A model generated the notes under the pieces. It ran no database searches and was not told the DNA's origin. It saw nothing but the letters and a program-made list of their open reading frames with translations. A stretch of 64,000 bases of DNA from Devosia sp. (GTDB taxonomy: Bacteria > Pseudomonadota > Alphaproteobacteria > Rhizobiales > Devosiaceae): contig NZ_JACZKG010000070.1 in assembly GCF_014860165.1 (NCBI RefSeq), positions 1 through 64,000 on the forward strand. Reading direction: 5' to 3'. Below, in pieces: positions 1,913-55,602 of this stretch (positions are counted from its first letter, which is position 1; each line of letters starts with the position of its first letter). Position numbers and translations under genes: made by a program.

Positions 1913-5371
<3,459 letters not shown>

Positions 5372-5438
5372 GCATGACCTTTAGCATCAGCGCCGGGTGA
5401 TCCCCACCTCACCGTGGGCGCAATCCACAACGGGATCG

Positions 5439-5537
5439 TCACACGAGTCGGGTGATCACATCCATCCAGGTGAGCGAGCCGATGGTGAAGGCCCCAAGCG
5501 TGACGAAGGCGGCGAAGTCCTTGATGAAAGTGAGCAT
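5439..5537 (-). CDS. Predicted SOS-controlled membrane micro-protein (32 residues)
   Basis: A short frame, MLTFIKDFAAFVTLG followed by AFTIGSLTWMDVITRLV. The start is set by GGGAG six bases upstream; an ATG at 5543 directly abuts that GGGAG and is less likely. It has one hydrophobic segment (about residues 8-28), a Lys near the start and an Arg near the end, so it looks like a single-pass inner-membrane peptide. Its promoter region holds a consensus alphaproteobacterial LexA box. LexA-repressed single-pass micro-proteins are known from Caulobacter, where SidA (29 residues) blocks division at FtsW. Function here is inferred from size, membrane segment and promoter only; I see no clear sequence match. 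Confidence 0.6.
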   Translation of the reverse strand: MLTFIKDFAAFVTLGAFTIGSLTWMDVITRLV

Positions 5538-5561
5538 CTGCATCTCCCGTGTTGCTATAAT

Positions 5562-5593
5562 GTTCTTATAAGTTCGTCTTTTGTTCTTGTCGA
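5562..5593 (-). promoter_or_regulatory. LexA (SOS) box within a sigma70-type promoter
   Basis: On the minus strand, GAACAAAAGACGAAC (5586-5572) matches the alphaproteobacterial LexA site GAAC-N7-GAAC exactly. A third GAAC follows after six bases (5565-5562). The box fills the spacer between TCGACA (5593-5588) and TATAAG (5570-5565), which are 17 bases apart as in a sigma70 promoter. LexA bound here would cover the promoter core. The first downstream gene is the 32-residue micro-ORF, about 25 bases on. Confidence 0.7.
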
Positions 5594-5709
5594 GGGACAA
5601 GAGCGGGAACAGCGGGGATTGGGCCTGCGTGGTTAGCGAAGTGTTAGGAAATGTTCACGGAGCGTTAGCGTCGACGGGCCGCACGAGTGAATCGGCGGCC
5701 CGCCGGAGG

Positions 5710-7191
5710 TCAGTGACCCAGCACGATATCGGCATCGGCTTTCTGGTGGATGCCGAGATTGTCGACGATCGTGGCGCTGGCCTTGTTGAGGCCGCTGAGG
5801 GACACGTCCACCCCCTGCTTGCGGAACTTGAGCACCGCCTTGTCGATGCTGGCGACGCTGGAAATGTCCCAGATATGGGCATGGGTCAGGTCGATGATCA
5901 CGCGGCTGACCTTCTCGTTGAAATCGAAGGCCGCCATGAACTGCTCGGCGGACGCGAAGAACAACTGGCCCTGCACGTGATAGACACGCACCTTGCCGTC
6001 CTCGCTCAGTTCCTTGCGGACGTCGAAGATCTGAGAAATCTTCCAGGCGAAGAACACGCCGGACAGCAGCACCCCCACCAGCACACCGATGGCCAGGTTA
6101 TGCGTCCCCACCACGAAGGCGACCGTGGAGAGCATGACGAAGGAGGAGCTGCGCGGATGCTCGCGCAGATTGAGGATCGAGCGCCAGTCGAAGGTGCCGA
6201 TCGACACCATGATCATGACGGCGACCAGCGCCGGCATGGGAATGATGCGCAGCAGATCGCCCAGCAGCACCATCAGGACCAGCAGGTAGCCCCCCGCGAG
6301 GAAGGTCGAGAGCCGCCCGCGTCCACCCGAGGCGACATTGATGCCCGATTGGCCGATCATGGCGCAGCCCGCCATGCCGCCGAAAAAGGCAGAGGCGATG
6401 TTGGCCATGCCCTGCCCCAGACTTTCCTGGCGCTTGTCGCTCGAGGTGTCCGTCGCCTCATCGACGATCTGCGCCGTCATCAGCGATTCCAGCAGACCCA
6501 CCGCCGCCACGGCGACGGCGTAGGGCAGGATTATCCAGAGCATGTCGAGACTTAGCGGCACCTGCGGAATCAGAAGTTCAGGCAGCGAGCGCGGCAGCTC
6601 GCCCATCTGTCCGACGGTATGGACATCGAAGCCCCAATACCAGGCAGCGAGGGTGAGCACGATGATGGCCACCAGCGGCGACGGCACCAGGGTGGTAATG
6701 CGGGGAAACAGGTAGATGATGGCAAGGGCGGCAGCGAGCAGCGGATAGGTCATCCACGGCACGCCGATCAGCTCGGGCAATTGCGCCATGAAGATCAAGA
6801 TCGCCAGCGCATTGACGAAGCCGGTCATCACCGACTTCGAGACAAAGCGCATGACCCGGTGCAGGTTGAGCCAGCCAGCGAGCAGTTGCAGCAACCCGGC
6901 CAAGATGGTGGCGGCCAGCAGATATTGCAGGCCATGGTCGCGCACCAGCGACCCCATCAGCACCGCGGTTGCCGCCGTGGCGGCCGAGATCATCGCCGGA
7001 CGGCCGCCCACGAAGGAAATGACAATGGCGATGACCACGGAGGCATAGAGCCCCACCTTGGGATCGACGCCTGCAATGATGGAAAAGGCGATGGCCTCGG
7101 GAACAAGTGCCAGCGCCACCACGAGGCCGGACAGGGCATCGCCCCTGATATTGCCGAACCACTCGCGGCGGTATTGGTCGAGATTGAACAT
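5710..7191 (-). CDS. SulP family inorganic anion transporter with STAS domain
   Basis: A 493-residue permease of the SulP/SLC26 family, which moves sulfate, bicarbonate or other anions across the inner membrane. The N-terminal part has the family signature ([20 protein letters not shown] and [20 protein letters not shown]) and about ten to twelve membrane segments. The C-terminal part, from about residue 390, is a cytoplasmic STAS domain ([18 protein letters not shown], then [16 protein letters not shown]). The start [11 protein letters not shown] is preferred over an in-frame ATG 13 codons upstream because family members begin here, although no good ribosome-binding site is visible. The transported anion cannot be told from sequence. 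Confidence 0.9.
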
Positions 7192-7434
7192 GGATGAAAC
7201 CCAACAGGCATCCCGCGCGGCAACGCACATCAGCGGAAGCGATTAGTTGGTGACCGGGGGATAGGCGCCCGGAGAAGCCACCCGGGACAGGGCCCGAGTC
7301 CGACGAAGGCCCTCCTGATGACGGCATGCAGCCAAAAAATCAACCGCCAAAACCGCATGGCCCGCGCCCACCCGCACGAGCGGCTTGCGCAGCGGCGACA
7401 GACTCGCTCAATGTCGGCCAACCCCGGAGCCGCG

Positions 7435-55234: not shown

Positions 55235-55602
55235 TACAGCACCTCGGGAGCGAGCGAAATGATCTTCATGTGGTTCTTGGCGCGAAGCTCGCGCGGAACC
55301 GGTCCGAAGATACGAGTGCCGATCGGCTCTTTCTGATTGTTGATCAGAACCGCGGCGTTCTTGTCGAAACGGATCACGGTGCCATCGGGGCGACGGATGT
55401 CGAACGCGGTGCGAACGACCACGGCCTTCATGACCTGGCCCTTCTTCACGCGACCACGCGGAATGGCATCCTTGACCGATACGACGATGATATCGCCGAC
55501 CGAAGCGTACTTGCGGTGCGAACCACCAAGTACCTTGATGCACATGACCCGCTTGGCGCCGGAATTGTCGGCGACATCGAGATTGGACTGCATCTGGATC
55601 AT
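55234..55602 (-). CDS. rplN: 50S ribosomal protein L14
   Basis: 122 residues, exactly the usual size. [20 protein letters not shown] and [14 protein letters not shown] [20 protein letters not shown] are diagnostic. The start [12 protein letters not shown] overlaps the rpsQ stop by four bases. Confidence 0.98.

Follow-up and report, generated by a model that had tools for sequence, protein, structure and literature searches.

The window, by which we mean the whole stretch of 64,000 nt analysed here, carries on its reverse strand a micro-ORF that lies between a gene for a SulP-family transporter and dnaE1 and is preceded by promoter-like elements and a LexA-box-like direct repeat (Table 1). The promoter spacer from TCGACA to TATAAG measures exactly 17 nt (AGAACAAAAGACGAACT) and accommodates the repeat. 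The micro-ORF frame runs from 5543 to 5439 and would encode 34 residues if its first ATG were used. We assign the start to the second ATG, at 5537, which yields 32 residues, because the first ATG is absent in several relatives and an ATG is aligned to 5537 in all 30 genus loci compared. The product has one hydrophobic span, with a best 15-residue Kyte–Doolittle mean of 1.81. dnaE1 begins 67 nt downstream of the micro-ORF on the same strand, and a generic scan of positions 5250-5720 listed no terminator-like site between the two genes. A reading of this DNA made from its letters alone (the sequence-only reading) had described the layout accurately, from the TCGACA-17-TATAAG promoter with its exact GAAC-N7-GAAC and further GAAC to the GGGAG and the 32-codon frame, the start of which is at 5537.

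Table 1. Features of the micro-ORF locus and its neighbours, with coordinates in the window
Feature	Coordinates	Strand	Basis or remark
-35-like hexamer TCGACA	5588..5593	(-)	read from sequence
LexA-box-like direct repeat GAAC-N7-GAAC, GAACAAAAGACGAAC, within the promoter spacer	5572..5586	(-)	exact match; GAAC copies at 5586-5583 and 5575-5572
-10-like hexamer TATAAG	5565..5570	(-)	read from sequence
Third GAAC	5562..5565	(-)	read from sequence; GAAC copy at 5565-5562
Shine-Dalgarno-like GGGAG	5544..5548	(-)	6 nt 5' of the conserved ATG
Micro-ORF encoding 32 residues (MLTFIKDFAAFVTLGAFTIGSLTWMDVITRLV) and ending in a stop codon; proposed divergent SidA-type protein	5439..5537	(-)	
dnaE1, replicative DNA polymerase III alpha subunit, 1152 aa	1913..5371	(-)	NF004226, 1426 bits, cut-off 1002
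SulP-family transporter, gene upstream of the micro-ORF	5710-7230	(-)	TIGR00815, below cut-off

The promoter-like elements recur in the relatives that we read. TnGACA or TTGAC occupies the -35 place and GGAG the Shine-Dalgarno place in most of them, and TATAAG is found at the -10 place in most genus loci and in many family loci. A generic promoter scan, the rule of which requires T at position 6 of the -10 hexamer, a base absent from TATAAG, listed no promoter at the locus. Rfam gave no match at the locus, and NCBIfam and Pfam hold no family for the window micro-protein, with weak Pfam matches to single members of the micro-protein family. The gene upstream differs in some loci of other families: in L084, L085, L086, L091, L094 and L108 an ABC-transporter ATPase ends 94-114 nt 5' of the micro-ORF, and the one that was scanned (L085) has LolD as its best match, below cut-off.

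The micro-ORF is a real and conserved gene under selection. Its protein was matched in 74 of 75 genus genomes, the single miss being a genome in 500 contigs that is 85% complete (G042), and, at E<=10, in 132 of 136 family genomes, where the lowest-scoring matches are doubtful. Family size and gene content would suit Hyphomicrobiales. For codon analysis we used the best 30 of the 74 genus loci, a set that consequently leans to close relatives. In each of them the frame is open, with an ATG at the 5537 place and the stop codon at the same place. The pN/pS ratio of these loci is 0.127 in frame versus 1.8 and 14.3 when the frame is shifted, and it is at third codon positions that substitutions concentrate (0.155 versus 0.05 and 0.003). 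Conservation is high across the promoter and the ORF and falls after the stop codon (10-base means of 0.55, 0.82, 0.55 and 0.54). The sequence-only reading had staked the ORF on its conservation and on synonymous-site bias in relatives, and both are present.

The bare box pattern alone is non-significant in the window, where exact GAAC-N7-GAAC occurs twice versus 1.55 times expected from shuffles, and we accept the operator and the gene as real on the ground of conservation, not of the box count. The other exact copy, at 55402-55416 (+), belongs to a count that fits chance. Within 150 bp of the micro-ORF start, the exact box is present in 29 of 30 genus, 32 of 40 family and 25 of 29 order loci, whereas the control, the same pattern read backwards, is found in one, three and none, respectively. 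With C or T allowed as the fourth base in each half-site, the family figure rises to 39 of 40. One locus, L065, represents a second and weak match of G089 and not its main copy. The 29 order loci come from other families and were found by the protein profile alone, blind to the box. They were read out of 37 genomes matched outside the family, with G176, G183, G191, G200, G356, G372, G402 and G403 left out (the matches of four of these lie in frames of >150 aa), and some are non-independent as several come from one genus. Four order loci have no exact box: L096 and L099 lie inside long ORFs of other genes, and L098 and L100 show a different GAAC arrangement, with GGAACATTC followed by ACGTTCC about 50 nt 5' of the ORF and GAACAAAGAGAG just before the start, which is possibly another form of LexA site. 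A pair of exact boxes is seen in none of the 30 genus loci, in 8 of the 40 family loci and in 2 of the 29 order loci. In some relatives (L046, L059, L069, L088, L092 and L274) the second full GAAC-N7-GAAC lies 3' of the first, downstream of the -10 hexamer, and perhaps provides tighter LexA repression.

Elsewhere in this genome, GAACAAANNNNGAAC occurs 12 times and its backward control not once. One site lies 47 nt before radA, in the orientation opposite to that gene, and the remaining sites showed no tie to known SOS genes among the neighbouring ORFs listed and the two pieces scanned for families. The other scanned piece, beside a further box site and a candidate imuA, matched no family. One lexA of this genome passes the cut-off, with GAACATAACTGGAAC located 65 nt upstream of the region matched by the profile; a second lexA-like match is weaker and falls below the cut-off. 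The Caulobacter LexA motif is given as GTTC-N7-GTTC (PMC12700426). The micro-ORF stands under a conserved LexA-type operator, and LexA probably controls it.

To follow the arrangement independently of the micro-protein, we searched for DnaE and read the DNA upstream of it. All 101 genomes of the order survey have DnaE and 100 were read. An exact box lies within 850 bp upstream of dnaE in 53 of these 100 versus one for the backward control, and the box in the other orientation is found in 11. A hydrophobic ORF of 22-90 codons follows the box in 50 of the 53. The class survey covered 172 genomes, of which 160 have DnaE at threshold; of these, 110 were read, largely the top scorers for DnaE, and the sample therefore leans to relatives. 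Here the box precedes dnaE in 19 of 110 genomes (control, 2 of 110). The exact box before dnaE is thus absent in 47 of 100 order and 91 of 110 class genomes. With the two surveys pooled, a hydrophobic micro-ORF stands behind the box in 66 of 69 box loci, whereas random pseudo-boxes placed on the other strand have one in 227 of 1030 cases.

Profile A2 of the family, which has 42 rows and none from Caulobacter, matches with at least 10 bits before dnaE on the same strand in 46 of 100 order genomes, versus 2 on the opposite strand. Eleven of the 46 matches are A2 rows, and 29 of the other 35 have an exact box; six order genomes contain the micro-protein without one. In the class sample, 12 of 110 genomes have an A2 match, with none on the opposite strand; all but one of the 12 lie outside A2, and each of these 11 has an exact box. 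The two samples have three genomes in common. These surveys indicate that many genomes of the order have the arrangement and that its occurrence across the class is patchy. They also agree with the expectation, set out in the sequence-only reading, that box and ORF would be conserved together upstream of dnaE in relatives. The distance to dnaE varies widely, with the starts of the picked ORFs ranging from about -110 to -722 in the order survey. The homologue and its box in G177 (L091, L321) are upstream of dnaE by ~2.5 kb and immediately follow an ABC-transporter ATPase frame.

A gene with the same surroundings exists in Caulobacter. In each of four Caulobacter genomes, found through a search with a piece of S-layer protein, a 29-codon ORF (MIR[IV]ARESLALVSVA[SG]FVWMMCTVA[QN]LVA) lies immediately upstream of dnaE, preceded by an exact box and more GAAC repeats. 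NCBIfam NF033228.1 (div_inhib_SidA; 74 bits, cut-off 35) identifies as SidA the sequence that L146 and L147 share. SidA is described as an inner-membrane protein of 29 residues that acts at FtsW (PMC4211646); sidA is listed as CCNA_02004 (PMC10769358), and Caulobacter dnaE appears in a table as CC1926 (PMC1839093).

A2 scores the three Caulobacter ORF variants at 15.2-16.3 bits, and no shuffle of SidA, out of 3000 full and 3000 segment ones, attains 16 bits. Among 145 control hydrophobic micro-ORFs, the 95th and 99th percentiles are 2.1 and 4.7 bits, with one control, at 23.4 bits, above SidA. This control, L324 (G227; MRSLMVRDVAALGALTAFATMLAVVVGGA), lies before dnaE on the opposite strand and shows no box over the preceding 90 bases; it is perhaps an inverted copy or a chance match. 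The 99th percentile of the controls is exceeded by 41 of 55 box-associated ORFs outside A2 and not by the other 14. The window protein aligns with SidA without gaps, with agreement at K6/R6, D7/E7, A10 and F17, and the agreeing SidA positions (6, 7, 10 and 17) are among the best-conserved columns of the micro-protein family. W24, equally conserved in that family, and D26 are absent from SidA. A profile comparison with hhalign gives a moderate match (probability 68, P 4.8e-5, 18 columns; probability 61 with alignment A1). The window micro-protein thus looks like a distant sequence homologue of SidA in the same gene position.

NF033228 finds no match in the window protein (limit E 10, HMMER filters on) and none in its genome; among 385 class genomes, one gives a match above the cut-off. 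At E<=1 the model matches 135 of the 385, and these weak matches mean little since 7 of 14 control genomes are matched too. Among them we examined L366, L367 and L371, bridging sequences in family f115 that score 41.9 (above cut-off), 21.4 and 18.1 bits (both below) on NF033228 and 13.6-16.8 bits on A2, and that are all found upstream of dnaE, preceded by one exact box or by two (for example, MARWVRDTLSLASCGGFVW). We call the window protein a divergent SidA-type protein rather than SidA proper, as A2 homology and the bridging sequences have to be set against the NF033228 miss.

An alternative in which a chance ORF happens to follow a chance GAAC repeat is exceedingly improbable. It would account for a bare box that is not enriched in the window and for an ORF absent from NCBIfam and Pfam, but it is contradicted by the pN/pS ratio, by the conservation of the protein and by the box surveys with their controls. 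We also regard as very unlikely that the micro-ORF is a leader peptide, with its translation or its transcript controlling dnaE, and not a free-standing protein. Its place directly before dnaE, 67 nt away on the same strand and with no terminator-like site in the scanned interval, would fit such a leader; however, the constraint acts at the amino-acid level, the distance to dnaE is variable and reaches ~2.5 kb for the G177 homologue, and the locus has no Rfam match.

The product could also be a LexA-controlled membrane micro-protein with a target outside the divisome, for instance a membrane-depolarising or other stress peptide, the likeness of which to SidA would be one of size, hydrophobicity, promoter and place. 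We consider this unlikely. Although the window protein fails NF033228 and its C-terminal half (W24, D26) differs from that of SidA, A2 ranks SidA above 144 of 145 control micro-ORFs and above every full and segment shuffle, and the bridging sequences occupy the same place behind exact boxes.

We interpret the locus as probably encoding a divergent, unannotated SidA-type membrane micro-protein, single-span and LexA-repressed, that would delay septation after DNA damage via the FtsW complex. In undamaged cells, LexA bound to GAAC-N7-GAAC between the -35 and -10 hexamers would exclude RNA polymerase. Upon damage, RecA filaments would trigger LexA self-cleavage and the promoter would fire; strong induction by mitomycin C is reported for the Caulobacter sidA promoter (PMC5189948). 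The peptide, judging from its hydrophobicity, would enter the inner membrane and, if it acts like SidA, block FtsW/FtsI/FtsN, the complex for septal wall synthesis, and so postpone division until LexA is back. The sequence-only reading had proposed an SOS-induced division inhibitor of a different lineage. It is supported in part, by a selected micro-gene of SidA size and one span beside dnaE and by a conserved LexA-type operator; gene position and distant homology place the protein closer to SidA than that reading had assumed.

Reported suppressors of SidA include the FtsW substitutions A31K, F145L and A246T (PMC4211646). FtsW of this genome retains A31 and F145 and has S at position 246; that of another family member, G113, retains A31 and has I for F145 and S for A246. 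The comparison covers three of four genomes, the longest ORF at L364, which was left out, being another gene. These residues are compatible with a target common to SidA and the window protein and do not prove it. In models described as low-confidence, TM7 of FtsW is the binding site of SidA, SosA and ChiZ alike, but SidA takes the opposite side, and its mechanism may hence differ from that of YneA, ChiZ and SosA (PMC13396833).

Read-through from the micro-ORF promoter into dnaE fits the shared strand, the short gap and the lack of a terminator-like site in the scan, but the distance varies among relatives, up to ~2.5 kb in G177. We put forward, as a tentative idea that we hold to be rather doubtful, that much of the Alphaproteobacteria inherited the SidA checkpoint from a common ancestor, with an unannotated micro-inhibitor fixed before the gene of the replicative polymerase, and that after damage a single LexA-controlled promoter would halt septation and, by read-through, also raise DnaE.

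To our knowledge, little has been described of the way in which members of the class other than Caulobacter stop dividing after DNA damage. Our data suggest that a damage checkpoint of SidA type is more widespread than its annotation and widen the SidA family beyond what NF033228 recognises. Conserved yet unannotated, the micro-gene has a place that can be predicted, before dnaE and behind GAAC-N7-GAAC; it supplies a direct candidate in many genomes and raises the question of why a division inhibitor stays beside the gene of the replicative polymerase. Titles and abstract openings, a body of literature with subscription papers largely outside it, mention no SidA relative outside Caulobacter and no LexA-controlled micro-gene before dnaE; the word 'sida' in two alphaproteobacterial papers proved to be the Sidak test, not the protein.

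Among known systems, SidA shares with the window protein a length of ~30 residues, one hydrophobic span, a LexA-type operator, a place directly upstream of dnaE and a gapless match with K/R6, D/E7, A10 and F17 in common. It differs in the C-terminal half, W24-x-D26 belonging to the family of the window protein, and NF033228 does not detect the window protein. DidA of Caulobacter is likewise a small division inhibitor with one span, is induced by damage and acts at the FtsW/I/N complex, but it has 71 aa, is induced by DriD and not by SOS, and is encoded at another locus (PMC4211646). YneA of Bacillus, which is reported to act at FtsW (PMC13396833), SosA of Staphylococcus and ChiZ of Mycobacterium are also SOS-induced small membrane proteins that block late division, whereas they belong to other lineages, some with extra domains. 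By description, they stand apart from the window protein; yneA, divS, chiZ and sidA are described as unrelated genes (PMC4211646).
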